37,435 nt of DNA, taken from contig JAJCZG010000062.1 in assembly GCA_029262475.1 (NCBI GenBank), positions 1 to 37,435 on the forward strand, written 5' to 3'. The stretch is from Deltaproteobacteria bacterium. Lineage in GTDB: Bacteria > Desulfobacterota > GWC2-55-46 > JAJCZF01. Under the pieces are notes generated by a model that searched no databases, had not been told where the DNA came from, and saw nothing but the letters and a program-made list of their open reading frames with translations. Position numbers and translations under genes: made by a program. Positions 16,783 through 33,852 of this stretch are shown here, piece by piece (the first letter of the stretch is position 1; each line of letters begins with the position of its first letter).

Positions 16783-17655
16783 TTATTTATTGTGGCATGT
16801 CCTGCAAACGCCGCTAACGCTGTTGCCGCCTACCCTCCTCAGGAAGAGGCCCGTAACTTCAGTCGGGCCGCCCCAGGTCGAATCCACCTCGTCCCAACTC
16901 GTATTCTTGAAGTGGGGGTCGTGACAGGATGAACACTCGACCTTGCCGTCGCGTAAGATGTCATCTATAGTAGCATCTGATGAAATAAACCCTTTTACAG
17001 ACCAGCGATTGGAGGTAGCCGTTGTGGAGCTTGCATCGCTGCCAAGAGAGGCCGTCAGGGTACCTGCCGTCATCTCAATCGTCGATATTACGGTATTCCT
17101 TGCCCTGAGCGAGGCGACCTTCTCCTTGTACGGTATGGAGACCGGGTGATCGTTTCTGAGGTCGGTCCCTATGACAGCCGTAACGGAGGTAAGCACATCG
17201 CTTACCGTGTTGCCGTCAATGGTAAAGGTCCATCCCATGTCAACCGGTGTGCCTCCACCCTTGCCGGGGGCATTCACGAGTGTGTCGAAGCTAGTAACTC
17301 CGTCATGGCAACTGAGGCATGCGAGAGAGGCTGCTCCTACACCATTGTCGGCGACGTAAGTACCAGCGAGTGTGGTGCCGTAGGCCTTAAAGGAAGCGGC
17401 GGTGCTCTGCCTGTTCCACAGCGGCATCCCCGACCCCCCGTGATGGGGAGTATGGCAGAAGATGCAGACGTCGGTTTCGTCGTTACTTATGGTACCCCCG
17501 GTTGATCCAAGGTTATGCGGTGTATCGACGATACCGGAGGCAGCATCCCCGTAAGTGAAGTCGCTTGGAATCCCGCAATAAGCCGCCTCCTCTGCAAACA
17601 AACCGACAGCCAGCCCCAAAAGAAGAGCTAAAATTTTAAGGGGAAATTTATTCAA
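16783..17655 (-). CDS. Tetraheme cytochrome c, HTPH type (paralogue 1)
   Basis: This 290-residue exported cytochrome has a signal peptide (1 to about 27) and four heme sites: CIFCH, CLSCH, CSSCH and CRTCH. Distal-ligand candidates HNLG, TPH, NDHP and CHDPH are conserved in all three paralogues. The last heme motif lies two residues from the C-terminus (CRTCHNK). A Ser/Thr-rich loop (SSTTATSNRW) and VKGFISS precede heme 3. It is the first of three tandem paralogues on this strand. The only start I can support is TTG at 17655. Its AGAGG lies about 16 bases upstream, so translation initiation may be weak. It is probably a periplasmic or extracellular electron-transfer protein. Confidence 0.88.
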   Translation of the reverse strand: MNKFPLKILALLLGLAVGLFAEEAAYCGIPSDFTYGDAASGIVDTPHNLGSTGGTISNDETDVCIFCHTPHHGGSGMPLWNRQSTAASFKAYGTTLAGTYVADNGVGAASLACLSCHDGVTSFDTLVNAPGKGGGTPVDMGWTFTIDGNTVSDVLTSVTAVIGTDLRNDHPVSIPYKEKVASLRARNTVISTIEMTAGTLTASLGSDASSTTATSNRWSVKGFISSDATIDDILRDGKVECSSCHDPHFKNTSWDEVDSTWGGPTEVTGLFLRRVGGNSVSGVCRTCHNK

Positions 17656-18297
17656 AACGTAATTCAGTAAACCTCTTTAATGGTATAAAGTCCGTGCCGG
17701 TATATATTACTATGCCTGCACCCAAGCCAGTAGCCGTTAGAGCGTTCGGGCTGCAAAAAACAGTCTATACAGTGTGAGAAGGAGCCCTAAGAAGCTCCCG
17801 TACCGTTAAGAGGGGATTTTTATAATAAGTAGCCGTAAAAAGACCCGGCATTACTTCACCATCTCCGTAAACGTCGTCCAACCTTCACCATGAACCATAA
17901 AGCCCCACGAGAATTACTCCAATAGTATATATCGGCAGAAGTAGACCCGGACTTTAATAATTTCTTTTCAGTGTAGTTCCGTTTATCGGTTTTTAAGATT
18001 ATTAATAGAGAGGCTGGAGCTGATATGAAAAAACTTGTAGCAACGCGCTAAGGGACTTGGCCCGGGGGGTGGGGGGGGCAGGGCTGGTGGGGGCATACGG
18101 AAAGACACATGGGCGTGCAAGCCCGCTCTTTTCGCTAAGCGAGACCTCGGAGAAAAAGAGCGCACTTAAGCCGCGCGCACGGTAACGCAAAATGGGAGTG
18201 TAGAGAAGGCTACGCTATGAACGTATTGGACAGAGAGTTCTTTATAAGGGTGATCTTTTGTGAAATCTTAAGAGAACGAGGCGGATAGACGATCCGG
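17656..18297. other. Gene-free 642-bp spacer between tetraheme paralogues 1 and 2
   Basis: No convincing ORF is present. On the minus strand it would form the long leader of paralogue 1. Visible structures include a hairpin GGAGC/GCTCC near 17774-17794, a G-rich tract at 18062-18095, and a 9-bp inverted repeat CGCTCTTTT/AAAAGAGCG (18124-18132 and 18154-18162) enclosing an inner TCGCT/AGCGA stem. Part of 17840-17900 resembles the leader of paralogue 2 (GTGAAG and TTCATGGTG elements). I see no clear -35/-10 pair. Confidence 0.5.
18062..18095 (+). other. Potential G-quadruplex tract
   Basis: The plus strand has G-runs of 6, 8, 3 and 5 separated by 1, 2 and 5 bases, which fits the classical four-run G-quadruplex rule. 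It lies between two cytochrome genes, downstream of paralogue 2 in the direction of transcription. Confidence 0.65.
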
Positions 18298-19182
18298 TTA
18301 CTTGGCGTGACAGGTCCTGCAGACGCCGCTTAAGCTGTTACCGCCAACCCTTCTAAGGAAGAGGCCGGTTACAGTGGGGGCGCTGCTCCATGTGGACTCC
18401 ACTTCGTCCCAGCTTGTATTCTGGAAGTGTGGGTCATGGCATGAAGCGCATTCAACCTTACCGTTACTAAGCAGGTCTCCAATCGTTGCCGATGAAGAGA
18501 TGAACCCTTTAACCGCCCAGCGGTTGGAGGTCGCTGTCGTGGAGCTGGCATCACTGCCTGCAGCAACTGACAACCCTTCCGAGGTCATTACCAGTGAGGA
18601 AATCAATGTACTGGTAGGGCGAAGTGACGCTATCTTCTCCTTATAGGTAACCGATATAGGGTGGTCGTTGGTAAGGTCGGTCCCTAGTACCGCAGATGGC
18701 GAGGTAAGCACGTCGCTTACGGTATTTCCGTCTACGGTAAAGACCCAGTCGAAGTTGATAGGCTGGTTCGTATTCACGCCGCCGTTACCCTTACCCGGGG
18801 CGTTTACCAGGGTATCAAAGCTAGTGACTCCGTCATGGCAGCTCAGACACGCGAGCGAGTTGGAGCTTATATCGTTATCGGCAATGAAGCTGCCGCCAAT
18901 CGTCGTGCCGTAGGCAGTAAAAGATGAGAGGGTCTGCCTGTTCCACAGGGGGCCGCCTGCGACACCGATATGCGGAGTATGACAGAAGATACACATATTA
19001 GTAGTGCCGTTGGTTATAAAAACGCTGGTGGCACCCAGGTTATGCGGGGTATTTGCTATATTACCGGTTGCGAGGCCGTACGGAAAATCGCTCGGCACAC
19101 CGGCACCAGCCGTCTGAGGCGCCAGAAAGGAGATGGCGATGGCTAGTAGAGGAATCGAAAGTTTGGCGAAAAAAAATTTCAT
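18298..19182 (-). CDS. Tetraheme cytochrome c, HTPH type (paralogue 2)
   Basis: This is a 294-residue paralogue of the flanking cytochromes. The signal peptide starts MKFFFAKLSIPLL and ends near AGA. The heme sites are CIFCH, CLSCH, CASCH and CRTCH. The protein contains exactly eight His: four in CxxCH and four in conserved positions (PHNLG, TPH, NDHP, DPHF). This predicts bis-His ligation of all four hemes with none to spare. The frame opens at 19281, but the added 33 residues have no signal character. ATG at 19182 is the likely start, though its Shine-Dalgarno is poor. A strong promoter lies about 250 nt upstream. It ends CRTCHAK. Confidence 0.9.
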   Translation of the reverse strand: MKFFFAKLSIPLLAIAISFLAPQTAGAGVPSDFPYGLATGNIANTPHNLGATSVFITNGTTNMCIFCHTPHIGVAGGPLWNRQTLSSFTAYGTTIGGSFIADNDISSNSLACLSCHDGVTSFDTLVNAPGKGNGGVNTNQPINFDWVFTVDGNTVSDVLTSPSAVLGTDLTNDHPISVTYKEKIASLRPTSTLISSLVMTSEGLSVAAGSDASSTTATSNRWAVKGFISSSATIGDLLSNGKVECASCHDPHFQNTSWDEVESTWSSAPTVTGLFLRRVGGNSLSGVCRTCHAK

Positions 19183-19440
19183 GAGTTCGGTTTCAGAGCC
19201 TTGTAATTGCATTAAGAGACTAATAGGCCAAAACGACGAAAAAGCGCTGTCAACGTCGCCAAAATAAAATTTTAGCGGCACTGCGGCGCCTTCACCACAA
19301 GCTCCCTGAATCCACCATGAATTCCGGAAATGATCTACGAAAGTAATATTAAGTCAGGATGATTCTTTGCGTCATATTCCGTCATGAAAGATGACTCATC
19401 AACAGTGCCTCTAACTCTGTCCGGCACTAGTATGTGGTAT

Positions 19441-19468
19441 ATTCTAATATAATAGAAAATTTTGTCAA
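19441..19468 (-). promoter_or_regulatory. Promoter for tetraheme paralogue 2
   Basis: On the minus strand GCTTGACA (-35 at 19463-19468) and TAGAAT (-10 at 19441-19446) have a 16-bp AT-only-rich spacer. The start is predicted near 19434, leaving a leader of about 250 nt. Confidence 0.75.
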
Positions 19469-19901
19469 GCATTTTTTTCTACTCAATCATAATGGCACTT
19501 GTTTGGCGCCTTTATCCTACCAGCTCTCCTATTTGCTTCTATGAAGTCAAATAACTATAAAGCCGTATAGCATAAGTTAAATTGCCGCCTTTTAGTCAAG
19601 GTCTATAGATGGCCGGTATTACTTATTACGACAGCTTGCGCAACACTTGATACGCTCTTGGCGCGTCTCTGTTAAGCGCACGGCTTTCTGTTATGGCTAC
19701 AATTGCCAACTATTGACTCCGACAATTTAGATTACCCTGCTCCCCCCTGCCTAATCGACTTTATATTCTCTTACTTAAATACCTATACTTAGTCTTCGGT
19801 TGCGATGCCGGTTGCGATGGGCGGTGGGCGCGGTGTCAAGTTGTCGCACCTGGTCTTCACCTCTGATACGTAAAGCTTCTCACTTAATTAATAAGCTACA
19901 T

Positions 19902-19940
19902 AAAAAAGGGCGGGCTGAGTATTCAGCCCGCCCTTTCTTA
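19902..19940 (-). terminator. Intrinsic terminator after tetraheme paralogue 3
   Basis: The arms AAAGGGCGGGCTGA and TCAGCCCGCCCTTT form a 14-bp stem with a 4-nt loop, followed on the minus strand by a T-run. It sits about 47 bp after the gene. The flanking A-run on the other side makes it potentially bidirectional. Confidence 0.92.
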
Positions 19941-19986
19941 TTGTAGAGGTAAGTCAATTAAATCAACTCACACTTAGGAGTTCGCA

Positions 19987-20889
19987 TTACTTGTTGTGGC
20001 AAGTCCTGCAAACACCGGATACGCTGTTACCGCCGACTCTTCTAAGGAACATGCCGTCGCCGTCAATCTCGGTGCCCCAAGTGGACTCAACTTCGTCCCA
20101 GGTGTTGTTCTTGAAGTGCGGGTCATGACAGGAAGAACATTCAACCCTGTTGGCGGTGGTCCTGAGGAGATCGCCAATCGTAGCGCCAGTGTTGATGAAA
20201 CCCTTTACAGCCCACCTGTTAGCAGTGGTTGTAGTGGAGTTGTTCTCATTGTTCTGTCCGGCTGTGAAGCCTGCCGAAGTCATGATAACGTCACTGATGA
20301 GCGTGTTGGTGGCCCTGAGTGAAGCCTTGTTTAACTGGTAGGCTACGGATACCGGATGGTCATTTGTGAGGTCCGTACCGATGTTGAGCCTGGTGGAGCC
20401 GATGATATCGGATACAGTGTTGGTATCCTCGGTGAAGGTCCAGTTAAAGTCAGTCCTGTTGGTGTTGTTGGACCCGTCGTTACCCTTACCTGGTGCGTTT
20501 ACGAGGGTGTCAATGGTGTTGACACCATCGTGACAGCTTAGACAGGCGAGTGTGGCTGCGCCTATGTCGCTATCAGCAATGAAGGTACCGGCTACGGTTG
20601 TGCCGTATGCGGTGTAGGTCGTTGTCTGAGCGCCCTTTGCCCATAACGGGGCGTGGCTTGCGCCATGGTGAGGCGTATGACAGAATACACAAATTTCAGT
20701 CGTTCCGCCGTTACCGTCACTGTTGTCTGCCCTGAAATGGACACCGTATGCGCCAAGGTTATGACGTGAACCCGCGATACCACCGGCGGCTACGTCAGCC
20801 GGGAAGTCAGACGGGGATAATGCGTTGGATGTGGCTGCAACGCCGAATACGAGGCCAAGACCGAGGGCCAAAGTTAAAAATCTTTTCAT
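19987..20889 (-). CDS. Tetraheme cytochrome c, HTPH type (paralogue 3)
   Basis: This 300-residue exported cytochrome has a signal peptide MKRFLTLALGLGLVFGVAA ending near SNA. Its four heme sites are CVFCH, CLSCH, CSSCH and CRTCH, with the same HNLG, TPH, NDHP and DPHF distal positions and terminal CRTCHNK. It has extra His (GVHF, TPHHGASH) and an Asn/Thr-rich insertion before NRWAVKGF. The start at 20889 is supported by AAAGGAGCAGGACAT upstream; the frame opens 11 codons earlier. It has the best ribosome-binding site and the best terminator of the three paralogues, plus its own promoter. It is therefore probably the most highly expressed. The NHL lipoprotein gene lies directly upstream. Confidence 0.92.
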   Translation of the reverse strand: MKRFLTLALGLGLVFGVAATSNALSPSDFPADVAAGGIAGSRHNLGAYGVHFRADNSDGNGGTTEICVFCHTPHHGASHAPLWAKGAQTTTYTAYGTTVAGTFIADSDIGAATLACLSCHDGVNTIDTLVNAPGKGNDGSNNTNRTDFNWTFTEDTNTVSDIIGSTRLNIGTDLTNDHPVSVAYQLNKASLRATNTLISDVIMTSAGFTAGQNNENNSTTTTANRWAVKGFINTGATIGDLLRTTANRVECSSCHDPHFKNNTWDEVESTWGTEIDGDGMFLRRVGGNSVSGVCRTCHNK

Positions 20890-21144
20890 ATGTCCTGCTC
20901 CTTTCAAAAGTTGAAAAAACATTTACCACTGCTATTTAGCTTCAGACCATCGTCGGTCTTAATTTGGCGGGGAGGCAAAAAAAAACACCTCCACCATCAT
21001 CGTCCCCAATGATAATGCGGCGTCGTCACCACAGTGAAAGTTCGTTGACCCTCCTTGAACCAGCGAACGGATAAAATCTGACGTACATATAAGTATTCCC
21101 TCTAAACCCCTTCATGAGAATAGCCTACTTATAAACACATGACT

Positions 21145-21173
21145 ATTCTAAAGGTTAAAGGACTCTTAGTCAA
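21145..21173 (-). promoter_or_regulatory. Promoter for tetraheme paralogue 3
   Basis: On the minus strand TTGACT (21168-21173) and TAGAAT (21145-21150) are exactly 17 bp apart, with 5 of 6 matches each. The -10 is identical to that of paralogue 2. Confidence 0.7.
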
Positions 21174-21355: not shown

Positions 21356-22411
21356 CTACTTTACAAGTGTCACGCCCTCTTCAGTGCGTTTCTTGTGCTT
21401 TTCTCCAAGGAATTCATAGACGTTTACCCTCTCATTCCACGAATCCGCGATGTATATGTAATCATCCTTGTCTATGTACATACCGGCCGGGAGGATGATT
21501 GCTCCACGGTTTTTGCCGTAGCCGCTGAAGGCGAGGAGTACTTCTCCGTCCTCATTGAATATCTGTATGTTATTAAATGCTGCGTCCGCGACGTATATAT
21601 GTCCTTCCGAGTCGACAGCGATGCCTTTGGGTCTGGCGAACATGCCGGCGCCGTCACCGAACTTGCCGAAGGTGATAACAAAAATGCCATTCTTGTCGAA
21701 GACTTGAACCCTTGCGTTCATGGTGTCGGATACGACGAGGTCGCCGTTCGGCCCTACGGCTATGTGCGCCGGGTAGTTGAACTGACCTTCGAGCGTGCCG
21801 CGTCCGTCGCCGACTTCGCGCAGGTGCTCGTGCGTAATGAGGTCGAAGACATGGATCGTGTGCGCGGCGGTATCCGATACGTAAAGTAAGTTGTTCTTCG
21901 TGTCCGCGGCCAGGCCGGTCGGCCTGTCGATATTGGAGTCCTCGCCGATGCTCTTAAGGAAGTTACCCCTATTGTTGAACATCATTATCTCTTTAGACTG
22001 AGCATCGGTGGCATAGACGTTACCGGCGCCGTCTGTAGTTACGCCGATGGGTTTTTGAAACGGGCTCTTGCCGTAGCGAAGCAGCGACCACGCGTCCTCA
22101 TTCACAGGGTCCAGCGCAAAGACGACGGTGAGAGCGGTATCGGTAATATAGATTACTCCGGCTTCGCTTACATGAACTCCCATCGGCTTTATAAGTGTCT
22201 TTACCGGTCTGCCGCCAAGGAGTACATCTGCTATAAGGCTTGCTTTATTGAAGTCTCCGGGGCCTACGTACTGAGTGGTGTATTTTATCCTCGGCTGATC
22301 CGGCGCGCCCGGCCAATAGACATCGGGGAGCACTACCGGCCCGCAACCGTATGTAAGTATCATGGCGAAGAAAACAATAAGTCCTAGTCTAAGTTTTTTG
22401 CTCTGTAGCAT
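21356..22411 (-). CDS. NHL-repeat beta-propeller lipoprotein (left copy)
   Basis: This 351-residue protein has a probable lipoprotein signal (hydrophobic 8-22, then TYGC with Cys at 23). It continues as a beta-propeller of about six NHL repeats, seen as recurring KPxGV, IYVADAAFNNIQIFN and FNYPAHIAV-type strands from about residue 70 to the end. There is no heme motif. Such propellers are protein-interaction scaffolds, and NHL proteins occur next to Geobacter filament cytochromes of the OmcS type. It lies upstream of tetraheme paralogue 3, has a promoter at 22483-22512, and starts at ATG after GGAAGAGGG. A paralogue at 29027-30136 also precedes a tetraheme-module gene. Confidence 0.9.
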   Translation of the reverse strand: MLQSKKLRLGLIVFFAMILTYGCGPVVLPDVYWPGAPDQPRIKYTTQYVGPGDFNKASLIADVLLGGRPVKTLIKPMGVHVSEAGVIYITDTALTVVFALDPVNEDAWSLLRYGKSPFQKPIGVTTDGAGNVYATDAQSKEIMMFNNRGNFLKSIGEDSNIDRPTGLAADTKNNLLYVSDTAAHTIHVFDLITHEHLREVGDGRGTLEGQFNYPAHIAVGPNGDLVVSDTMNARVQVFDKNGIFVITFGKFGDGAGMFARPKGIAVDSEGHIYVADAAFNNIQIFNEDGEVLLAFSGYGKNRGAIILPAGMYIDKDDYIYIADSWNERVNVYEFLGEKHKKRTEEGVTLVK

Positions 22412-22571: not shown

Positions 22572-23420
22572 TTAAAGGCCCCTGCGGTATTTAATTATTC
22601 CAAGTCTCCTCTTCGCCTCAACTATGCTCCCACTGTATTCGTCTTCGTAGTTTGATGCGACCTTGATGAATCTTTCGTAATTTGAGGTGGCTTCATCGTA
22701 GTTGCCGAGCCTTTCGAATATGAGGGCTATATTATAGAGTGGTTCCGGGTCGCTTGGATTGTTATCGGCAGATAGTCTGTAAAACTCAAGCGCTTTTTTA
22801 AGGTTGCCCTGAAGGTAGTAGGTGTTGCCGAGGCCTGTCATTGCAGAGCCGTTCGCGCCGTCTATCTCCAGTACTCTTTTGAAATCCGCTTCCGCCTCCC
22901 GAAGCTTGCCGGACTTTCCGTAGGCGGTGGCCGCCTGGAGCATCACCCTCGTGTCGTCAGGCCACCTCGCTCTGGCTCCGGAAAGAAGCTCCAGGGCTTT
23001 GGCGTCTCCACCGAGATCGGCGTAGATGCCGGCGAGTGCCAGGTACGGCTCTATAAGGTCAGGTCTTTCCCTGATTACGTATTCGAACTCGGCTTTGGCT
23101 TGAGGGAACTTCTTTACTTCCCTCAAGTAGACGCCCATGTTGTAGCGAGCCTCCACGTCGGTCGGGTTTAGCGAGACGGCGGTACTCAGGCTCAGGTACG
23201 CGCTTTTGAGGTTTTTGGCCCGGGCGTGCGCCAGACCGAGGTAGGTATGTCCCCTGCTCTTCATGGGGCTCTTCCCTGTTACGTCTTCCCAGAGTGTGAA
23301 CTCGTCTGCCCAGACGCTATTTCTCACGTAAGTGGCAACGGCGTAGACGGTGCATATTATGATGAGGGTTAAGATAGCGGCCTTGAAGGACGCCGGTGTT
23401 TTGGAGTTTATTTCGTTCAT
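22572..23420 (-). CDS. Membrane-anchored TPR protein
   Basis: This 282-residue protein has one N-terminal transmembrane helix (about 14-32) and about six TPR units from residue 55 to 280. Examples are ARYNMGVYLREVKKFPQAKAEF and SAMTGLGNTYYLQGNLKKALEF (shown in parts by their G-Y-A pattern). The segment after the helix (WADEFTLWEDVTGKSP) resembles the hinge between membrane part and TPRs in the neighbouring TMTC-like protein (LETLWRDTIRKNP). It may therefore be a shortened relative. TPRs probably face the periplasm and bind partner proteins of the cytochrome system. ATG follows AAAGGGAAG. Confidence 0.85.
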   Translation of the reverse strand: MNEINSKTPASFKAAILTLIIICTVYAVATYVRNSVWADEFTLWEDVTGKSPMKSRGHTYLGLAHARAKNLKSAYLSLSTAVSLNPTDVEARYNMGVYLREVKKFPQAKAEFEYVIRERPDLIEPYLALAGIYADLGGDAKALELLSGARARWPDDTRVMLQAATAYGKSGKLREAEADFKRVLEIDGANGSAMTGLGNTYYLQGNLKKALEFYRLSADNNPSDPEPLYNIALIFERLGNYDEATSNYERFIKVASNYEDEYSGSIVEAKRRLGIIKYRRGL

Positions 23421-23486: not shown

Positions 23487-24143
23487 TCAACGCCAGCGTT
23501 CCGTTGATTTATCTTGCGAATCGCCTTTCATTACCACATGGCATCTCCTGCAATTCGCGATGGGGAAGAAGTTGAAGGCGACTTTTCCATGGCACCTGCC
23601 GCACCATTCCCCCTTAAAGATGTCGTTCATGCTCATCTCGGGGTTTCCGCCCGCCTTCGGTACGAATATCTTGGGGTGGCAGTTGTCGCAACTGAGCCAG
23701 TATGTGTGTATTGAGTGGGGGAAGAGCACGTTTGACATGAGCGGCACCTTGGCCTCAATGAATATATTGAGGTTAAGCGGCGGCATCTCTTCCACTCCGG
23801 GCTCGATAGAGCCCCGTGGAGATATCAGCCCCTCCATGACCGCAGTCGTCCAGTTGACCTCTCCGCCCTGTCCCTTGGGCAGCCCGTCGAGAGCGACGGT
23901 CTTGGAGGTGCCTTCCATAACGCCACCTCTGTCGGAGAGTTCCCTGAAAAATTTCTCGTAGTAATCGCTCCGTTCGCTGTACGAGGTTGCTTGCTTGGAG
24001 GGCGTGAGCCCGCCGCTGTCGTCTATAGGCCCCTCGTTTAGGAGCTCGTTCATATCTACGCTACATCCGAGGAGGATTATAGATAGGATAATGACGGCGG
24101 AGACCACAAGGTACGGCCTGATTGTAAGAGAGCCCGGATTCAA
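23487..24143 (-). CDS. c7-type triheme cytochrome lipoprotein
   Basis: This lipoprotein has about 218 residues with signal IILSIILLGCS, so it is tethered to a membrane. The C-terminal c7-like domain has CDNCH, CGRCH and CRRCH plus NVLFPHSIH and GNPEMSM. The N-terminal half lacks hemes. It nevertheless aligns with the middle of the hexaheme protein at 32892-33788 (GEVNW...A...G.I.P), whose C-terminal domain shares HPK/HPE, GGNPEMSM and CHGKVAF. The frame opens at TTG 24152, inside the Shine-Dalgarno. TTG at 24143, nine bases after GGAGG, is the better start. It probably relays electrons between the inner-membrane complex and outer cytochromes. Confidence 0.88.
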   Translation of the reverse strand: MNPGSLTIRPYLVVSAVIILSIILLGCSVDMNELLNEGPIDDSGGLTPSKQATSYSERSDYYEKFFRELSDRGGVMEGTSKTVALDGLPKGQGGEVNWTTAVMEGLISPRGSIEPGVEEMPPLNLNIFIEAKVPLMSNVLFPHSIHTYWLSCDNCHPKIFVPKAGGNPEMSMNDIFKGEWCGRCHGKVAFNFFPIANCRRCHVVMKGDSQDKSTERWR

Positions 24144-24276
24144 GAGTTTCAACCTCCGGCGACCCTGGGAAATAAGCAGGACGCCCGTTCCTTCAAAATA
24201 GTCGTATTCATGGTGTATAGCTGTGTGGAGTCCTTAAAAACCGATTGACACCACAAGAATCGACTGCTCTTTAAAT

Positions 24277-24333: not shown

Positions 24334-26499
24334 TCATTTTTTTACGTTTTTCAGGAGCTTCTTCGCTATACTCAGGTTCTTTCTGAATCGAGGGCTATCA
24401 GGGTTCAGTGCGGATGCTTTCTCAAAGCTTTCGACCGCCTCCTGGTATCTTTTTTCTTCAAGATAGGCGGAGCCGAGGTTATTTAGGGCGTCCGCGTAAT
24501 CAGGTTTTATTTCCAGGGCTTTCCGATAATTCGAGACCGCCTCGGCGGTCCTGCCCATATCCGCAAGCGTAACACCAAGGTTATAGTAAGCTTCGGCGTA
24601 TCCGGGGTCGATCTTCAGGGCTTTACGGTAATAGGATGTCGATTCGTCGAATTTTTTTTGTTGGGAAAAGATAATCCCCAGGTTGTTGTAAGCATAGATG
24701 TTGTAGGGTTTGTAGCGTATCGCATGTTTGTAGTGCGTGGCGGCCTCAGGAAGCCTTCCGAGGGAGAGTAAGATGTTTCCGAGGTTATTATGGGCGTCGG
24801 CAAATGTGGGTTTGCTCCGTATGGCGCTCGCGTATGACTCGGACGCTGCCTCGGGCAGCCCGAGCTTCGTGTAGGCGATAGCAGAGTTGTAGTGGGCATA
24901 TGGATGGCCCGGTTTGTAGGTGAGCGCTTTTCTGTAGTAGCCTAACGCCTCGGAGTATTCGCCACGGTCCGAGAATGTGATTCCTATATTATAATAGGTC
25001 TCCGCGTCGAAGGGTTTTAGGCGTATCGATTCGTTGTACTCGGCCATAGCCTCGTCGAACCTTCCGAGGCGCGAGAGGGCGTTACCGAGGTTGCTTCTCG
25101 CTTTGGCGTGGTCGGGCTTAAGCCTGATTGCATTTCGGTACGACTCCACGCTCTCTTCGAGCCTGTCCCTTGAGGCGAGCACTGTGCCTAAATTATTATG
25201 TGCGATCCACGCCGAAGGGTTCTTCCTTATTGTGTCGCGCCAGAGCGTTTCGAGGCCGGTGTAGACATACCCCTGCTTCCAGGTAAGGACGCCGAGCGTT
25301 ATAATTGCCGCCACAGAGAGGGCGTAGAAGAGGGTTTTTGTGGGAATGGAGCCGCCACCCCTTACCGTAAACGCCCACGCAGGGATCGCTACGGCTATTG
25401 TGATTACGCCGAGGCTTGCGAGGTACTGGAAATGGTCGGCGACGAACGAATACCTAAACGGGTAGACGTCGAAGAAGCCAAGCGCCGGAAAGAGCGTCAC
25501 GATAAAGAATGCGAGCGCGGCGACTGGGCCCCGGCCTATCTTCTTTAAGGATAGTAGAAGTATCAGCCCGAGTAAAAGCACCCCGGCGGTGAAGACCCAC
25601 TCACTTGCGTCTGTTGCGTCGATACTCCACCTTGGGTATATAAATGTTAGCTCGACCGGGTAAAAGAGTTTCATGGCGTAAAAACTTGCGATCTTACCCG
25701 AGAGCACTACCCTCTCTACAAATGTCATGGACCACTCAAGCCCCATAGCGCCCACGCGCGAGACTTCCAGGCGTGCCGTGTTTAGCCCCATAAGGCCGCC
25801 TCCTATAAAGAACGGAACCATGAGGGCTATATAGCCGGGCGTTGGCATTCCGACCCGGTACCATCTTATAATGAGGATGGCTACGGGGAGGGTACAGGCG
25901 ACGGTCTTACTGAAGAGCGCCATTATAAAGAAGAGGATGGAGAGGAGATACCAGCGTCTTCCCTCTCCGTCGTCGAATTTCAGGAAGGTAAATAACGCCG
26001 ACAGGTAAAAGAGGCCGGATAAAACGTTCTTCCTCTCTGTAATCCATGCGACACTCTCCACATGCACCGGGTGTACGGCGAATATCAGGCCAACGATAAA
26101 GGCCCCTGGAATTTTAAGGCGTCTCAAGATGAACCATACCAGCATGGCGTTCATGGAGTGTATAGCGACGTTTACGATATGATAGCCTATGGGCTTAAGC
26201 CCCCAGAGGTAATGCTCTATCCAGAAGGTTGTGAATACGAGCGGATAGTACTGCGGGCTTTCGTTAGTGAACCAGATACGTTTTAGGCCGTCGATGCTTT
26301 GGAGGAGCGTGTTGTTTAGGACATATGCGTCGTCGTCCCATATAAACCCCCCTCCGATAGACGGAATGTAGAAGGCGAGCGTGACTGCGGCCAATATGAT
26401 TGCGCCGGCCAGAGGCATTAGATATATTTTCATATCTGTTTCGCCCAGGGTATCAGCATAGTTTTCTAATTCATTATTCATAGCCTTACTATTTAGCAT
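24334..26499 (-). CDS. TMTC-like membrane protein with C-terminal TPR repeats
   Basis: This 721-residue protein has an N-terminal polytopic region (about 24-410, roughly ten or more helices) and eight consecutive 34-residue TPRs (about 425-700). The first lumenal loop carries an acidic WDDDAYV motif (54-60), as in GT-C glycosyltransferases and eukaryotic TMTC O-mannosyltransferases. HPVHVESVAW and ITERKNVLSGLFY are also typical of this family. Function in bacteria is not established. From its relatives I infer transfer of a sugar from a lipid carrier to exported proteins, the TPRs selecting substrate. Neighbouring cytochromes with Ser/Thr-rich loops are candidate substrates. The start is uncertain: M7 and M23 are alternatives. 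Confidence 0.88.
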   Translation of the reverse strand: MLNSKAMNNELENYADTLGETDMKIYLMPLAGAIILAAVTLAFYIPSIGGGFIWDDDAYVLNNTLLQSIDGLKRIWFTNESPQYYPLVFTTFWIEHYLWGLKPIGYHIVNVAIHSMNAMLVWFILRRLKIPGAFIVGLIFAVHPVHVESVAWITERKNVLSGLFYLSALFTFLKFDDGEGRRWYLLSILFFIMALFSKTVACTLPVAILIIRWYRVGMPTPGYIALMVPFFIGGGLMGLNTARLEVSRVGAMGLEWSMTFVERVVLSGKIASFYAMKLFYPVELTFIYPRWSIDATDASEWVFTAGVLLLGLILLLSLKKIGRGPVAALAFFIVTLFPALGFFDVYPFRYSFVADHFQYLASLGVITIAVAIPAWAFTVRGGGSIPTKTLFYALSVAAIITLGVLTWKQGYVYTGLETLWRDTIRKNPSAWIAHNNLGTVLASRDRLEESVESYRNAIRLKPDHAKARSNLGNALSRLGRFDEAMAEYNESIRLKPFDAETYYNIGITFSDRGEYSEALGYYRKALTYKPGHPYAHYNSAIAYTKLGLPEAASESYASAIRSKPTFADAHNNLGNILLSLGRLPEAATHYKHAIRYKPYNIYAYNNLGIIFSQQKKFDESTSYYRKALKIDPGYAEAYYNLGVTLADMGRTAEAVSNYRKALEIKPDYADALNNLGSAYLEEKRYQEAVESFEKASALNPDSPRFRKNLSIAKKLLKNVKK

Positions 26500-26895
26500 A
26501 AAAAGAGTATTTCTTCAATAAAGGTTACCGGGTTATCAATCGGTAAATGTCACGAATCTTAATCCGTTGTCGGTGGGGCGGTTAATATATTTGTTGAATT
26601 GCCTGCTATAGTTATGGTACAAATTGAATGTTAGCCCGCTGGAAAAGGTTTGCTTACCGGTACTCTCCGGCTCGTTTTTTTCAAGTGTTTCCCTGTAGGC
26701 CTCCTGCAAATGCCGGTACGCCGAAGGCCTCCGCGATGAAGGAATCTCTAAGGGAAAACCCTTCCGTCGGGCGGATGCGTGGTAGGGTGAAATAGCGTGA
26801 AGACGGCGTTACTTAAGTGTGCAGACAGCGTTATAGATAGGGTTTTGGCGCTGTAATCCGGGCTTTATGGATTAAACTTACTCAAGGATATGATC
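26500..26895. other. Divergent spacer between the two arms of the cytochrome locus
   Basis: The region separates the minus-strand TMTC-like gene from the plus-strand PQQ-propeller gene. Toward the plus-strand gene an extended -10 TGCTATAGT lies near 26604-26612. A leader with several stems follows: AAGGG/CCCTT with an A4 loop (26750-26763), CCGC/GCGG enclosing it, ACAGCG/CGCTGT (near 26825-26854) and TAATCC/GGATTA just before the ribosome-binding site. No ORF is supported, and no known riboswitch is recognised. Confidence 0.45.
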
Positions 26896-28077
26896 ATGGT
26901 AAAGTTTTTTTTACGGTTTGCTGATAAGCGAGTTAATAGTCAAAAAGAGCAGATGCGTCTTCCGGGCGGTCTGGCGCTTATATTTACCCTTGCTGCGCTA
27001 CTGGCCCTCTCTCCCTCACTTTCGGCGGCGGGGTCGTGGCCGATGTTCCTGGGAGGTCCAGCTCATAAGTCAATATCAAATGAGCCCCTTTCTGTTCCGC
27101 TTGATATGAAATGGCGTTTTAAGACCGGCGGGGAGATTAACTCTTCACCGGTAATAGACGGCGGGAAGGTTTTTATAGCTTCGTACGACGGCCACCTTTA
27201 CGCCCTTGACGCCTCAAGCGGCGATGAGCTCTGGCGTTTTAAAACCGGCGGCGAGATCCTCTCAACACCGGCTATCTCCGGCGGTGTAGCCTACTTCGGG
27301 TCGAAGGACGGCAATGTTTACGCAGTTAACGCAAGCGACGGTTCTCTTAAATGGAAGTTCGAGACGAAGAGGGAGGTGCTTACCTCTCCGGTCGTCGCGC
27401 AAGGCTCTGTCTTTATAGGGTCTTCCGACTCGTTTCTCTATTCCATCAAAGCATCTGACGGCAAGCGTAACTGGAAGAGGAAGCTCGCCGACACCGAGAA
27501 GTACAGCGGCATATACTCTTCACCGGTCTATAATGACGGCAGCGTCTATATCTCCGGCAAGAACGGAATAGTCTACTCCTACGACGCCGAGAGCGGCGGG
27601 AGGAACTGGTTCATGCTCACCTCCTCGGCCATCTACTCATCCCCTTCCTTGAGCGGCACCACACTATTTGTCGCTTCATACGAGAGGATTCTTTACGCAA
27701 TCGACACCGCAAAAGGTACACGGCTATGGAGAAAGAGGCTTCAGGATTGGCCGTACTCTTCTACTTCAATAGATGGAACTACCGGTTATATAGGGCTTAA
27801 AAACGGTGATCTCCTAGAGGTCGGGCTCTTTAAAAGAGGGAAGGCCAGGGTCCTGAACACCTTCCCCGCCGCTATAAATGCCACACCCGTCAAGACCGAA
27901 GGCGGCCTCATCTTCGTTGGCTCCGAGGACTCCAATATCTACGCACTTGATCCATCCGGCGGAGAAATCGTGTGGAGCTATAAGACCGGCGGCGGTATAC
28001 ATGCGAGCCCCGCCGTGGTCGACGGCGCTCTATACGTCGGAAGCAAAGACGGTTACCTGTACGCATTCGGTTCCTGA
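26896..28077 (+). CDS. PQQ-type beta-propeller periplasmic protein
   Basis: This 393-residue exported protein has repeated beta-propeller blades of the PQQ/WD40-like type. DGHLYALDASSGDELWRFKT, DGNVYAVNASDGSLKWKF and NIYALDPSGGEIVWSYKT show the Tyr-Ala-x-Asp...Gly...Trp pattern, with about seven blades from residue 60 onward. It has no heme motif or dehydrogenase active-site Cys pair, so it is more likely a BamB-like scaffold than a PQQ enzyme. ATG at 26896 follows AAGGATATGATC; ATG at 26890 is too close to that site. ATG at 26953 would give a more standard signal peptide (MRLPGGLALIF). It faces away from the TMTC-like gene. Confidence 0.87.
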   Translation: MVKFFLRFADKRVNSQKEQMRLPGGLALIFTLAALLALSPSLSAAGSWPMFLGGPAHKSISNEPLSVPLDMKWRFKTGGEINSSPVIDGGKVFIASYDGHLYALDASSGDELWRFKTGGEILSTPAISGGVAYFGSKDGNVYAVNASDGSLKWKFETKREVLTSPVVAQGSVFIGSSDSFLYSIKASDGKRNWKRKLADTEKYSGIYSSPVYNDGSVYISGKNGIVYSYDAESGGRNWFMLTSSAIYSSPSLSGTTLFVASYERILYAIDTAKGTRLWRKRLQDWPYSSTSIDGTTGYIGLKNGDLLEVGLFKRGKARVLNTFPAAINATPVKTEGGLIFVGSEDSNIYALDPSGGEIVWSYKTGGGIHASPAVVDGALYVGSKDGYLYAFGS

Positions 28078-28339: not shown

Positions 28340-28906
28340 ATGAGCAGATTTCTTTCAAGTTTACTTTTAGTGATCCCTGTCGTCCTAGTCTACTCCACCT
28401 CATTTGCCGTGGAGCATGATGATTACCAGACGGTGCTTAAATCCCTGATAAACCCCCATGAACAGATAAATGACGAAGGTGATGTGCTCTGGGGCACATG
28501 TATCATTTGCCACCCGACCACGCCCGATGTCGATAAGGATAAGTCCATTGAGGACGTAAAACTCCGCTTCGAAGATAATCTGAGGGACCTCTGTTACAAG
28601 TGTCACCCGCAGCCGATGCATCCGGGAGGAGCGTGGATGGGACTGGCTATGGGAGATGATACCAAGGGCTCTCCAAACCACTTGATTGAGCCGCCGCTAG
28701 CTATTGCTAACAATATGAACCTCTCGCTTAAGGAGTCTAAGATAGCGCTTCCCCTTACGCCCGGCACCGGCAGGATATTCTGCGCTACATGTCATAATCC
28801 CCATGAGAGGGGACTGCTGCGGGGCAGGGCCGACGCCGGAGCTGATATCAGCCAGAGGTTAAGAACGAGCGGCGGGACCATCTGCCAGTTCTGTCACAGG
28901 AAGTAA
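28340..28906 (+). CDS. Tetraheme cytochrome c, exported
   Basis: This is a 188-residue protein with a Sec signal peptide (1 to about 23, ending SFA) and four heme motifs: CIICH, CYKCH, CATCH and CQFCH, the last two residues from the C-terminus. Other His (HPTT, HPQPMHPGG, NHLIEPP, CHNPH) can act as distal ligands. It is not a close relative of the three HTPH paralogues, but it shares the CxxCHNPH element and the terminal CxxCH. It heads a plus-strand operon with the right NHL gene 120 bp later. ATG follows CCGGAG by five bases. Confidence 0.88.
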   Translation: MSRFLSSLLLVIPVVLVYSTSFAVEHDDYQTVLKSLINPHEQINDEGDVLWGTCIICHPTTPDVDKDKSIEDVKLRFEDNLRDLCYKCHPQPMHPGGAWMGLAMGDDTKGSPNHLIEPPLAIANNMNLSLKESKIALPLTPGTGRIFCATCHNPHERGLLRGRADAGADISQRLRTSGGTICQFCHRK

Positions 28907-29026: not shown

Positions 29027-30136
29027 ATGAGATGTATATCGCATACGTTTAATTCACTGATGGAACGCTTTGAAAGGCGCCTTGACGCGGCGGCGAAGAG
29101 GATTTTTTTCTTAACCGTCCCCGCCCTCTTAATCGTCGCTCTGATCTCGCTTACCGGATGCACTACGGGTGGCGGTATAGCCCTTGACGAGGAGAGGTTA
29201 GCCCCGCCGGGCTCTATGGTATGGCCGCCTCCTCCGGCCGACCCTCGCGTCGGTTATGTGAAGACGCTTAAGCGCCCCGCAGACCTCGGAGGAAAAAGGG
29301 GCATACTAAAGTCTGTGATAGACCTGATCGTCGGCCCTAACGAGGACAGGGTGATTAAGCCCTTCGGCATCTCGGTCGACTCCAAGGGGAGGGTTTTAAT
29401 TGCAGATTCGGCTTTTAAAAGCATTCATATCTTCGATATCGCGGCCAAGAAATACAAGCGTATCAACAGGGTAGGCGGCGAGCTCTTTACCACACCCGTG
29501 GGGGTGACAGTAGACCTTCTTGATAATATCTATGTCTCGGATTCCACCGCAGGCAAGGTATACGTTTTAAATAAGCGAGGGCGTCTCATCTTCACCATAG
29601 ACGGTCTAAAGAGGCCCACCGGCGTTGCAATAGATCATAACGAGGGCTACCTCTATGTAGTCGATACCCTGGCTCACGATATTAAGGTTTTCGACCTGAA
29701 GGGCGATTATATAAAGACTATCGGCCTAAGGGGAGGGGAGGACGGCGAGTTTAACTATCCGGTGGATATCTTCGTTGACAATAACGGTGATATCTTCGTT
29801 AGCGACTCCATGAATTTCAGGATTCAGGTCCTTAATAAAGATGGCCGCCTCCTCGATACATTCGGCGAGCACGGCGACAGCACCGGGAAGCTCGGCAGGC
29901 CCAAGGGGCTCGCGGTGGACAGGGACGGGAACGTCTATGTGGTTGACGCCATATTCGACACCGTTCAGATATTTAACAGGGACGGGGATTTTCTCTTAAA
30001 CTTCGGGTCCAGGGGAACCGGACCGGGTGAGTTCTGGCTTCCTTCCGGCATCTATATAGATAGTAATTCGTATATATATGTCGCAGACTCCTATAACGGC
30101 AGGGTACAGGTCTTTGAATATCTCGGGGGTAATTAA
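29027..30136 (+). CDS. NHL-repeat beta-propeller lipoprotein (right copy)
   Basis: This 369-residue lipoprotein has a hydrophobic segment 27-44 followed by LTGC (Cys at about 45). It then has about six NHL blades, with NIYVSDSTAGKVYVLN, IFVSDSMNFRIQVLNKDG and YIYVADSYNGRVQVFE as examples. It is paralogous to the left copy: the same EFNYP.DI, ARPKG/GRPKGLAVD and C-terminal VADS.N.RV.V.E.LG pattern. It precedes the 11-heme gene by only 2 bp, so the two are probably translated together. The Shine-Dalgarno is weak for both ATG 29027 and ATG 29060; the latter gives a shorter N-region. It probably resides in the outer or inner membrane facing the periplasm or exterior. Confidence 0.88.
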   Translation: MRCISHTFNSLMERFERRLDAAAKRIFFLTVPALLIVALISLTGCTTGGGIALDEERLAPPGSMVWPPPPADPRVGYVKTLKRPADLGGKRGILKSVIDLIVGPNEDRVIKPFGISVDSKGRVLIADSAFKSIHIFDIAAKKYKRINRVGGELFTTPVGVTVDLLDNIYVSDSTAGKVYVLNKRGRLIFTIDGLKRPTGVAIDHNEGYLYVVDTLAHDIKVFDLKGDYIKTIGLRGGEDGEFNYPVDIFVDNNGDIFVSDSMNFRIQVLNKDGRLLDTFGEHGDSTGKLGRPKGLAVDRDGNVYVVDAIFDTVQIFNRDGDFLLNFGSRGTGPGEFWLPSGIYIDSNSYIYVADSYNGRVQVFEYLGGN

Positions 30137-30138
30137 AA

Positions 30139-32415
30139 GTGTCTGATAGAATTATAGTATCACACGGCAGGTGGCGCGCAGGTGCCCTGATAAAGCGTTC
30201 TTTTGCGGCTGGACTTATCATTTCGTTCTTATCGGCGGTCTTCTATCCGGCCCTGGCGGGTGCAATCGTCGCCGATACCAAACACAACCTTGGCTTCTAC
30301 TCACCGGGTATGGTTAAGAGCCCGGATACTACCGAGATATGTATATTTTGCCATACGCCCCACAGCGCCAACCCCGAAGGTCCCCTCTGGAACAGGACGA
30401 ATTCAGGGGCCACTTATGTAGTTTACGCAACCGATACGATGGTATCCAATACGGGACAGCCGACCGGCTCGTCGAAGCTTTGTCTTTCCTGCCACGACGG
30501 AACGATAGCCCTGGGGTCGCTCTTAAACCTTCCGGGCGCAAGCACAAGCGGTCTTTTAAATGTCGAGGGGGCTGACGCGGGTAAGATAGGCTCCGCATCG
30601 GCTTCGCATATCGGCACCGACCTCTCCGACGATCACCCCGTATCATTTTCTTACTCAAACGCATTTCCCGCCAACGCGGAGATCCACGACAGCTCGACGC
30701 TACCCCCTACGGTAAAGCTCGATAGCGGCGTTCTCCAGTGCACGGCCTGCCACGACCCGCACGGAACCGACTTTGATAAGTTCCTCGTGGCTTCTCTAGA
30801 CTCCGCCGGGTTATGTACGACATGCCACAAAAAACTTTACTGGTACGCCGACACGCCGGTCCACAGCACATCCACCGCCGTATGGAATAATACCGGGACA
30901 AACCCGTGGCACGAAGATTTAGGCGCTACAGGATACGCCGACGACACACCGGCTCTCCAGGGGTGCCTATCGTGCCACCGCTCCCACGGAGGGGCTGCCG
31001 GCATGGCCCTCACAAAAGGGGTGAACCCGGGGCTGGCTACAGAGGTTGGCGAGGAGTGGACATGCCTCTCGTGTCATAACGGTACTGTCGCGACAACGGA
31101 TATGACACCCTACTTCAACGGAATGAAGTTCTACCAACATCCGGTCATGGACTCTATGAAGTACGACACTCACCAGCCGACAAGGCCCGTAGCCGGTGAC
31201 CCGGTAAGGGAGGACACGACAACCCTTGATCTGGCGAACAGGCACGTCGAGTGCGCCGACTGCCATAACCCGCACGGCGCAAAGACCGGTAACCATACCG
31301 TCGGCGGCCCCAACGGTAATGTCGCAGCGCCGAACCTCTACGGTGGATGGGGAGTAAAGCCGCTTACATGGCCCGCTAACCTTCCGGGCGCGATTATCGA
31401 TAACACCGCCTTGAACTATACGATAGTCGACTTCGATACCACTACGCCGGTAAGTGACAAGCTCGAAGGCTATATGTGCATGAAATGTCATTCTGCATAC
31501 GCCTACGGCACGACCATCGCAAGCACTCCGGAGGTGCCCTCAGGCAACGCTGACGACAGCCTGGGTGTCATCCAGTCGGATATCAGCGGAGATTTTAACC
31601 CGAATAACGCAAGCTTCCACCCCGTATTCGCCGTAGGGCTTAATCAGCCGATAGCAGGCGCAAACCCTAACTGGGGAGTGGGCGGCACGCTTACACAGAC
31701 ATTCCGTTACGTTGAATTTACCGGGCTGGAAGTGGACAGGAGCGGATTTTACAACATGACGCATACGAGCAAAGTAACATGCTCGGATTGTCACGGGTCG
31801 AATCTCCCTACAGACGTCAAAGGCCCGCACGGCTCTGACAATAAATGGATACTGCGGGGCAACGAGACCGGTGTCGGGACTTCGGTGAACTTCTGCTATA
31901 ACTGCCATCGCAGGGACGTCTACGGCGATAACGGTTACATAGACGCCATAGGCGCATTTGCAAACCCGAAGAAGAGCAGGGTTAACCACCCGCCCGGGCT
32001 AAGCGTTACTTCACCTTTCTACGATTCGCTCGGCGTCTATACTGGTAATAACTCGAATAAGTTCGGCAACCTTTGCCTTACCTGCCACGGCGGAGCCTGG
32101 GGCGGAGACGATAACGGCGCAACACCCGATACCAGCATCTACTTAAAGAGATTGCAGCTACCGGGAGAGGAATATAAAGATAGGATACTTGGCGTTCACG
32201 GCTCAAACATAGGCGACGACCCGGACCTCATAGGTGATGAGAACCTGAGTCACAGGATGATGAATGGCGCGTGCGTCCAGTCGTATACCAAGCCAACGAC
32301 GACGTCGGCCGGTTCGATAGTCTTCAGGGCCGCCGTCCCGGGGACCGACAAGATGTGTAACTTTAACTTCGGCACGGTCCCCATACCGACTACTGAAGTA
32401 AACTATGACTATTAA
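30139..32415 (+). CDS. Undecaheme (11 CxxCH) cytochrome c
   Basis: This 758-residue exported cytochrome has eleven heme motifs: CIFCH, CLSCH, CTACH, CTTCH, CLSCH, CLSCH, CADCH, CMKCH, CSDCH, CYNCH and CLTCH. Residues about 45-235 reproduce the HTPH tetraheme module (KHNLG, CIFCHTPH, CLSCHDG, DDHPVSF, CHDPHG). About 500 further residues add seven hemes with long Gly/Asn/Thr-rich linkers. Two Cys near the C-terminus (ACVQ and MCNF) are outside heme motifs and may form a disulfide. The signal anchor is SFAAGLIISFLSAVFYPALA. It starts at GTG two bases after the NHL stop. It is probably a large surface or periplasmic electron conduit. A heme-free OM barrel partner is not in the window. Confidence 0.9.
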   Translation: MSDRIIVSHGRWRAGALIKRSFAAGLIISFLSAVFYPALAGAIVADTKHNLGFYSPGMVKSPDTTEICIFCHTPHSANPEGPLWNRTNSGATYVVYATDTMVSNTGQPTGSSKLCLSCHDGTIALGSLLNLPGASTSGLLNVEGADAGKIGSASASHIGTDLSDDHPVSFSYSNAFPANAEIHDSSTLPPTVKLDSGVLQCTACHDPHGTDFDKFLVASLDSAGLCTTCHKKLYWYADTPVHSTSTAVWNNTGTNPWHEDLGATGYADDTPALQGCLSCHRSHGGAAGMALTKGVNPGLATEVGEEWTCLSCHNGTVATTDMTPYFNGMKFYQHPVMDSMKYDTHQPTRPVAGDPVREDTTTLDLANRHVECADCHNPHGAKTGNHTVGGPNGNVAAPNLYGGWGVKPLTWPANLPGAIIDNTALNYTIVDFDTTTPVSDKLEGYMCMKCHSAYAYGTTIASTPEVPSGNADDSLGVIQSDISGDFNPNNASFHPVFAVGLNQPIAGANPNWGVGGTLTQTFRYVEFTGLEVDRSGFYNMTHTSKVTCSDCHGSNLPTDVKGPHGSDNKWILRGNETGVGTSVNFCYNCHRRDVYGDNGYIDAIGAFANPKKSRVNHPPGLSVTSPFYDSLGVYTGNNSNKFGNLCLTCHGGAWGGDDNGATPDTSIYLKRLQLPGEEYKDRILGVHGSNIGDDPDLIGDENLSHRMMNGACVQSYTKPTTTSAGSIVFRAAVPGTDKMCNFNFGTVPIPTTEVNYDY

Positions 32416-32449
32416 GATGACCAAAAGGGTTTTTCACAGGAGTTTAATA

Positions 32450-32848
32450 ATGGACGCAGGCAGGGTGTTTTTAATATCTGCCGCCGTACTAATAATCCTC
32501 CTTTGCGCTCTAACCCGGGAGAGTAAGGCTCAGTCCAGTTATGTGAACCCGCATATCAAGGGAGCCACAGGGCTTTGCGGCGAGTGTCATTCTAACCCGC
32601 CGGATTTGCTAGCCGATGATGTGGCCGTCTGCTTGCGTTGTCATGATGGCAGCACCGCAGACCATCCCGTTACCAGGCACCCGATAGACAGGGTTGTGAG
32701 GATCACGACGCCGTCTCCGCTTCCGCTAACAAGGGATAATAAAATTGTCTGCTCTACTTGCCACGACCCGCACGCCGGTTCCGGCTTTAGAGCTTTTTTA
32801 AGGGTGAAGTACAACACCCTCTGCATACAGTGTCATGTGGATTATTAG
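32450..32848 (+). CDS. Small tetraheme cytochrome c
   Basis: This 132-residue exported cytochrome has a signal peptide (VFLISAAVLIILLCALT, cleavage near SKA). Its four closely spaced heme motifs are CGECH, CLRCH, CSTCH and CIQCH, in a mature protein of only about 105 residues. DHPVTRHP and CHDPHAG supply distal His. The frame opens at 32405, overlapping the upstream gene. ATG at 32450, seven bases after AGGAG, is clearly the start. It is probably a soluble periplasmic shuttle between the inner-membrane module and the larger cytochromes, by analogy with c7 and small tetraheme carriers. Confidence 0.9.
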   Translation: MDAGRVFLISAAVLIILLCALTRESKAQSSYVNPHIKGATGLCGECHSNPPDLLADDVAVCLRCHDGSTADHPVTRHPIDRVVRITTPSPLPLTRDNKIVCSTCHDPHAGSGFRAFLRVKYNTLCIQCHVDY

Positions 32849-32891
32849 TCCGGCCCGTGTCCGGTACGTATCATTTTACGGAGGTCTATAA

Positions 32892-33788
32892 GTGGACAAG
32901 AAGAGTTCTACTGCCTTTCTGGCGCTAATGCTAATAACCGTTCTCACAGCCATTGCGTTTTTTGCCGGCGTCTCCACTGCCGGGGAGCCAACCATCGTGG
33001 ACAGGGTGGACAGGACTAAGGAGATAGACCCGGGTAAGTACGGCAATATTATGATTAATAATAAGACCGGTGAGGGGAAGGCGATGCCTGAGGTAGAGTT
33101 CCCGCATTGGTTACATAGAAGTAAGTTCACATGCAAGGTCTGTCATACCGAGATCGGGTTTAAGATGAAGGCCGGGGCCAATGACTTTGTTATGGCTAAT
33201 ATATTTGCCGGTAAGGACTGCGGAGCCTGCCATAACGGCAAGGCCGCCTTCGCTGTTACGGACTGTAATCGCTGCCATACCGGCGGATTGCCCAATGAGA
33301 AGAACCGCATTATAGAAGAAGCCCTCCATGAGCTTCCGGTGGACGACTTCGGAAATAAGATCAACTGGGTTAAGGCATTAAGGGACGGCGATATAAAGCC
33401 TAAAGCATCGCTTGACGGCACCGGAGAAATGACCGTCGTTGATATGGATATCCTGATAGACGTAAAGAAGTTCGCACCGGCTCCGCCAAAAGTCCTTTAC
33501 CCTCATAAGGCACATACCGAGTGGCTCGACTGCTCAAGCTGCCACCCCGAGCCATTTAAGATGGAAAAGGGCGGTAACCCGGAGATGAGCATGAGGAAGA
33601 TACTCTCCGGACAGTACTGCGGTACTTGCCACGGCAAAGTAGCCTTCCCTCTTACCAATTGCTTCAGGTGTCACAGCGCCGAGCCGGAGCCGCTCGAGCT
33701 GTGGCCGGACCCTTACGCGGAAGATGCTGCCGCCGATAAAGATAAGAAGTCCGATACCACCGCCGACCCGGACCCGATGGATGAGTAA
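32892..33788 (+). CDS. Hexaheme cytochrome c with two c7-type triheme domains
   Basis: This 298-residue exported protein has signal LMLITVLTAIAFFAG. Domain 1 (about 65-140) has CKVCH, CGACH and CNRCH. Domain 2 (about 200-275) has CSSCH, CGTCH and CFRCH with FPHWLH and YPHKAH before each first heme. The tail is Asp/Lys-rich and lacks hemes. Domain 2 and the linker match the triheme lipoprotein at 23487-24143. The GTG start follows GGAGG by seven bases. It is the last gene of the right-arm operon, before a strong terminator. Confidence 0.9.
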   Translation: MDKKSSTAFLALMLITVLTAIAFFAGVSTAGEPTIVDRVDRTKEIDPGKYGNIMINNKTGEGKAMPEVEFPHWLHRSKFTCKVCHTEIGFKMKAGANDFVMANIFAGKDCGACHNGKAAFAVTDCNRCHTGGLPNEKNRIIEEALHELPVDDFGNKINWVKALRDGDIKPKASLDGTGEMTVVDMDILIDVKKFAPAPPKVLYPHKAHTEWLDCSSCHPEPFKMEKGGNPEMSMRKILSGQYCGTCHGKVAFPLTNCFRCHSAEPEPLELWPDPYAEDAAADKDKKSDTTADPDPMDE

Positions 33789-33812
33789 CTAAATATTCTT
33801 TTGTATTTATTA

Positions 33813-33852
33813 ACAAAGGCCGCTCCAAAGAATGGAGCGGCCTTTGTTCTTT
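33813..33852 (+). terminator. Intrinsic terminator of the right-arm operon
   Basis: ACAAAGGCCGCTCCA (33813-33827) pairs with TGGAGCGGCCTTTGT (33833-33847) as a 15-bp perfect stem with a 5-nt loop, followed by TCTTTC. It lies 24 bp after the hexaheme gene. Confidence 0.9.

Follow-up and report, generated by a model that had tools for sequence, protein, structure and literature searches.

OmcE-type cytochromes and an OmcE-fused 11-heme protein at a putative extracellular electron conduit locus of a Desulfobacterota bacterium

Outside Geobacter cells, heme-packed subunits of the cytochrome OmcE form filaments that carry electricity. One heme of OmcE is ligated by a histidine of the neighbouring subunit (PMC9473688; PMC12307469), the hexaheme filament OmcS has its heme packing in common with OmcE (PMC9473688), and the assembly, anchoring, and membrane wiring of cytochrome nanowires are stated to be unresolved (PMC12307469). 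A second described system is the undecaheme electron transfer complex (Uet) of Tenderiales and some Gallionella, for which the listed parts are a tetraheme cytochrome (UetA), a peptidyl-prolyl isomerase (PPIase, UetB), a barrel (UetC), triheme c7 cytochromes (UetDEG), NHL proteins (UetHI), and an 11-heme cytochrome (UetJ) (PMC10734462). In Geoalkalibacter ferrihydriticus, an OmcE homolog is clustered with two NHL proteins, and the same locus also encodes a putative quinol-oxidising cytochrome (PMC12016550). Here, we describe a cytochrome gene locus at positions 16783–33852 of a 37,435-nucleotide contig (JAJCZG010000062.1; the whole stretch is hereafter called the window) from a deltaproteobacterial genome (GCA_029262475.1). 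The locus represents a variation on a known type, in which OmcE-type filament subunits are combined with Uet-type conduit parts, and it probably accounts for the greater part of an extracellular electron conduit of the OmcE/Uet type. The basis of this reading is the OmcE homology of the encoded proteins, the conservation of their heme ligands, a fused protein architecture, a conserved operon, and barrel and PPIase genes elsewhere in the genome.

The genome sampled comprises 2.4 Mb in 145 contigs and was rated 100% complete; the window is its contig C62, and the nearest relatives are metagenome-assembled genomes (MAGs) from groundwater and sediment. The locus encodes eight multiheme cytochromes that together carry 40 CxxCH motifs, against 0.12 expected when the residues of these proteins are shuffled, along with two NHL propellers, one PQQ/BamB-like propeller, a TMTC-like protein, and a TPR protein. 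These genes form two arms diverging from a 391-bp gap (26499–26890). The recount and the inspection of the open reading frames thus bear out the inventory given by a first-pass annotation of this DNA, as well as its observations that in both arms an NHL gene lies directly upstream of an OmcE domain of the HTPH type, and that each arm carries a related c7-type cytochrome, both matching TIGR04257 (nanowire_3heme).

The minus arm carries three tandem tetraheme cytochrome genes, designated OmcE1 (16783–17655, 290 amino acids (aa), with a signal-like N-terminus), OmcE2 (18298–19281), and OmcE3 (19987–20922), all on the minus strand and each with four CxxCH motifs. A single-sequence phmmer search of the PDB with OmcE3 returned OmcE of Geobacter sulfurreducens (7TFS, E = 1.1e-13) and entry 9YUQ (1.7e-10), and a profile of 66 relatives matched 7TFS with E = 2e-50 over chain residues 10–232, that is, end to end, and 9YUQ with 2.4e-44 over the full chain. 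The invariant histidines of these 66 sequences number exactly eight, namely the four of the CxxCH motifs, which follow the same order as in OmcE, and H54, H85, H189, and H269, which align with the TKH, HTPH, NDHP, and CHKVH of OmcE itself. The latter four would supply one distal ligand per heme, in a bis-His pattern as in OmcE; in the entire OmcE2 protein there are only eight histidines for four hemes, all of them from the invariant set. H54, near the N-terminus, is a candidate donor of the inter-subunit ligand. Over the PDB, the sole Foldseek match of the tetraheme AlphaFold model, a monomer without heme (pLDDT 59, pTM 0.57), was 7TFS (prob 1.00, TMt 0.53). Because of the whole-chain similarity at E = 2e-50, the same ligand set, and the fold match to 7TFS only, the three tandem proteins are assigned to the OmcE family.

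Like OmcE, the window tetrahemes end just past the last CxxCH, but their chains are longer (290–327 versus 232 aa), with Ser/Thr-rich inserts. Signal-like N-termini are visible in the OmcE-type proteins. The window paralogs and a further copy on contig C91 share 55–67% identity with one another and 26–40% with distant family members. A further difference from OmcE is the presence of three tandem paralogs and of five-heme variants in which an additional CxxCH lies between hemes 2 and 3; such variants occur on contig C91 (locus L042) and in relatives (L041). The first-pass annotation had proposed an OmcE/OmcS-like conduit system. The OmcE part of this proposal and the extracellular electron-transfer gene context were upheld, while the OmcS part was not: the tetraheme profile aligns with OmcS at CxxCH motifs only (local E of 1.4e-6, with no stretch passing alone), and OmcS has six hemes rather than four. 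Membership in the archaeal filaments was likewise rejected, as among the PDB matches only OmcE and 9YUQ align as whole chains.

Two further features of the OmcE-type genes were observed. In the relative's locus L041 (5295–10432 of G026:C53), five five-heme OmcE-like genes stand in tandem, a strong expansion of putative filament subunits. Between OmcE3 and OmcE2, just after OmcE3, lies a perfect 14-bp hairpin, AAAGGGCGGGCTGA-GTAT-TCAGCCCGCCCTTT (19905–19936), which could act as a terminator or an mRNA-stabilising element and could set subunit ratios; this hairpin apart, a sigma-70/terminator scan gave little above chance.

The plus arm encodes an 11-heme cytochrome resembling UetJ (30139–32415, plus strand, 11 CxxCH). 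Its N-terminal domain (aa 25–232, four hemes) aligns to the entire OmcE chain (7TFS, E = 1.4e-24; 2.3e-50 with a profile), and is followed by a seven-heme domain (aa about 233–660). Foldseek comparison of the 11-heme AlphaFold model (pLDDT 66, also a monomer without heme) with the PDB gave 7TFS as the only significant match (TMt 0.59). The protein is an OmcE subunit fused to an additional seven-heme domain. For its 11 hemes, 13 non-CxxCH histidines are invariant, including the N-terminal H49 and H242, just past the OmcE domain. If the invariant N-terminal histidine is the inter-subunit ligand, then the 11-heme protein would dock at one end only, its added domain closing the other end. Tentatively, and with well under even confidence, one could hypothesise that it is a dedicated terminal subunit, whose OmcE domain docks via H49 on the last OmcE-type subunit, while the seven-heme domain supplies the ligand that would otherwise come from a next subunit and connects the filament to a barrel in the outer membrane.

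The 11-heme gene belongs to a plus-strand operon with a fixed gene order, intact in the loci of the taxonomic order to which the genome belongs. The operon is opened by a secreted BamB/PQQ-type propeller (26890–28077; Pfam PQQ_2, 3.8e-49; orthologs with 41–51% identity in every complete relative operon), followed by a 188-aa tetraheme cytochrome (28340–28906, four CxxCH; 45–59% in all relative operons), an NHL lipoprotein (29027–30136; LTGC lipobox; Pfam NHL, 1.8e-29), the 11-heme cytochrome (about 53–58% within the order), a small 147-aa tetraheme cytochrome (32405–32848, four CxxCH; 34–49% in all relative operons), and a hexaheme c7 cytochrome (32892–33788, six CxxCH; TIGR04257, 1.8e-36). 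The genes are tightly packed: only 2 bp separate the NHL and 11-heme genes, and the latter overlaps the next gene by 11 bp. The hexaheme protein consists of two triheme domains of the kind found in the multi-triheme c7 cytochromes 3OV0 and 3OUE (E = 2e-44 to 3OV0), but has two such domains, as opposed to four matched stretches in 3OV0, and is encoded within an OmcE/Uet operon. The 188-aa tetraheme was considered as another filament subunit and rejected; it had no relative in the PDB search and was not of the OmcE type there. In the relatives, the operon is headed by an NrfH-like 7-heme membrane cytochrome between two small HAMP membrane proteins (e.g., L027, 4875–7061), whose place is occupied in the window by the minus arm; no intact copy of these genes was found in the genome itself.

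A single scan across a collection of genomes at species level recovered homologs of the 11-heme protein from 13 named phyla, and all 11 hemes are kept in 51 of 55 distant homologs. On the tree of 11-heme proteins, the sequences of the order form a clade, and their nearest relatives beyond it include Sulfurimicrobium and Thiobacillus MAGs. Gene context was counted in the 46 distant loci with enough upstream sequence: the NHL gene lies directly upstream of the 11-heme gene in 41; 41 loci encode a large outer-membrane barrel and 39 an OmcE-like gene, and all three features are found together in 34. Within the order, the OmcE/11-heme trait is patchy: OmcE-type and 11-heme genes occur in the families f1, f6, and f7, and the searched members of f2–f5 are without OmcE-type or full-length 11-heme genes.

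A barrel profile derived from the distant 11-heme loci was run across the order and pointed to a further locus of the relatives, with the gene order c7, NHL, OmcE, PPIase, monoheme, diheme FGE-like, (spermidine-synthase-like), FGE-like, barrel, and TPR. In the genome studied here, contig C99 (L185) carries an OmcE fragment, a PPIase, a monoheme protein, an FGE pair, and a barrel. The contig ends within the OmcE gene (14792–15076), which is 91% identical to OmcE3 over 94 aa; this is an assembly break at a repeat, and the number of OmcE paralogs in the genome is therefore a minimum. The 693-aa C99 protein matched a hidden Markov model (HMM) specific for the barrels of the order (2.5e-116), and these barrels are homologous to those of the wide-phylum set (hhalign 99.6%, E 1.7e-24). 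The wide barrel profile itself had no match in the genome at E 0.001, and the C99 protein, recovered by synteny and the order-specific HMM, had no Pfam family match; its size, composition, and C-terminal aromatic residue suggest that it and its counterparts in relatives are beta-barrels. Two FGE/SUMF1-like proteins (L185, 10832–12853; L176, 7297–10776), one of them fused to a diheme segment, are conserved between OmcE and the barrel in the order.

No porin, pilin, or cytochrome-maturation gene was found within the window, in agreement with the first-pass annotation; however, since the barrel sits on C99, it is this contig that lacks a porin and not the genome. Besides the three OmcE-type genes, the minus arm contains a six-bladed NHL propeller, probably a lipoprotein (21356–22411, minus strand; Pfam NHL, 1.7e-32), whose copies in relatives precede OmcE-type genes, and a triheme c7-type lipoprotein cytochrome (23487–24152, minus strand; three CxxCH; LLGC lipobox; TIGR04257, 1.2e-16), which is a probable electron carrier on the periplasm side and has orthologs with 53–68% identity in the relatives' OmcE loci. 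Because it corresponds to the relatives' c7-NHL-OmcE-PPIase-barrel locus, the minus arm is a filament-subunit locus without barrel, adjoining the 11-heme operon. The two arms do not represent one duplicated module: in the plus arm, the fused 11-heme gene belongs to a conserved operon, and the minus arm has its counterpart in a separate filament-subunit locus of relatives.

Every part type listed for Uet (PMC10734462) occurs in this genome, with the 11-heme, tetraheme, c7, and two NHL proteins encoded in the window and the PPIase and barrel on C99, and the 11-heme gene adjoins an NHL gene, as UetJ does. Because the parts lists match by component type, we file the locus as Uet-type and use the Uet names accordingly. 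It differs from the described cluster in that its genes are distributed between two or more loci, both in this genome and in relatives, and in the presence of a PQQ/BamB-like propeller and two further tetrahemes in the window, and monoheme and FGE-like proteins in C99. The G. ferrihydriticus locus, similar in its OmcE homolog and two NHL proteins, has MtoA/MtoC-like large partners instead of an OmcE-fused 11-heme protein (PMC12016550). No match to the DmsE/MtrA or OmcA/MtrC families exceeded the cut-off, and the C99 barrel has no Pfam family; on the basis of these MtrA- and MtrC-type models, assignment to the porin-cytochrome systems of the MtrABC/OmaB-OmbB-OmcB kind was rejected.

Taken together, the parts probably operate as follows. 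The OmcE-family tetraheme subunits, once secreted, would assemble at the cell surface into a polymer that forms a heme chain. The 11-heme protein would join this chain through its N-terminal OmcE subunit, at the terminus or as an adaptor, and through its seven-heme domain would exchange electrons with a conduit in the outer membrane that has the C99 beta-barrel at its core. The c7 and small tetraheme cytochromes would carry electrons across the periplasm, exchanging them with the barrel complex. The NHL and BamB-like propellers would serve as scaffolds in the envelope or as lipoproteins for assembly, while the C99 PPIase would aid the folding of exported proteins. Electrons might flow along such a route outwards or inwards.

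Several points weigh against a conduit of this kind. The AlphaFold models are middling, heme-free, and monomeric; the barrel gene lies on another contig than the 11-heme gene here and at another locus in relatives, as opposed to a compact cluster elsewhere; the likeness to Uet is one of parts lists; and the inter-subunit histidine that defines OmcE polymerisation is represented here by a candidate, the invariant H54. Even in Geobacter, the need for cytochrome filaments in physiology and respiration is disputed (PMC11077965), and in Desulfovibrio ferrophilus, deletions of NHL-linked multiheme clusters left Fe(III) oxide reduction unimpaired (PMC9769857).

Alternatively, the system could take up electrons that minerals, electrodes, or partner cells provide, which is the role put forward for Uet of cathode-oxidising Tenderiales; we regard this option as somewhat unlikely. 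The matching parts list is that of a system described from cathode oxidisers (PMC10734462; PMC5371394), and the Sulfurimicrobium and Thiobacillus MAGs among the nearest 11-heme relatives outside the order point the same way. However, heme chains can work in either direction, the relatives' operon includes the NrfH-like 7-heme protein, a quinol-oxidase type, and Geobacter OmcE is tied to the reduction of external acceptors (PMC12307469). A little less probable still is that no filament is formed, and that the OmcE-type tetrahemes, like the 11-heme protein, act as single outer-surface or periplasmic cytochromes that pass on electrons when they collide, a mode put forward for many multiheme clusters. 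This would agree with the lack of a pilin or secretion gene in the window, with structure models that are monomeric only, and with the caution that heme counts by themselves are no proof of export (PMC9769857), but the homology extends over the whole chain of a protein solved as a filament, every distal histidine is kept, and 9YUQ, the other entry of the OmcE family, contains 16 chains that share one sequence, which is compatible with an assembly. A cytochrome filament family new to science and unrelated to OmcE/OmcS, suggested by the Ser/Thr-rich chains with insertions and the low identity to distant members, is highly improbable, being refuted by the end-to-end match to OmcE with an identical ligand set. 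The possible new family raised by the first-pass annotation is not supported either, as the tetrahemes belong to the OmcE family and the parts list equals that of Uet (PMC10734462).

Among the remaining minus-strand genes of the locus, a TPR protein with an N-terminal transmembrane segment (22572–23420) is probably accessory, and a TMTC-like membrane TPR protein (24334–26499) is weakly associated with the system. The latter is possibly a protein O-glycosyltransferase, but because the genome carries many TMTC-like genes, it was dropped as evidence for a dedicated filament glycosylase. Beyond the locus, 2 kb from OmcE1, the minus-strand genes at 11346–14594 encode a tetraheme cytochrome, an NrfD/DsrP-type membrane protein (349.8 bits as DsrP-like, against a cut-off of 350), and a DsrO-type Fe-S protein; they possibly form a quinone-linked module, connected to the conduit by proximity alone. 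NrfD/Fe-S-like genes also occur near some distant 11-heme loci (L089, L105, and L133). The dnaK gene (9082–11085, minus strand) contains an in-frame TAG at 10546–10548, within '...ATMDAG*IAGLEV...', which could be an assembly error, a mutation, or recoding.

Through sequence and fold, these data join the literature on OmcE nanowires with that on Uet. A conserved protein that is in part a filament subunit, encoded beside an NHL lipoprotein and usually accompanied by a barrel and an OmcE-like gene, makes the assembly, anchoring, and wiring of nanowires testable in many phyla. Should the 11-heme protein indeed act as the terminal subunit, 13 phyla would share a conserved connector, defined by its sequence, that links a cytochrome nanowire to the cell envelope.

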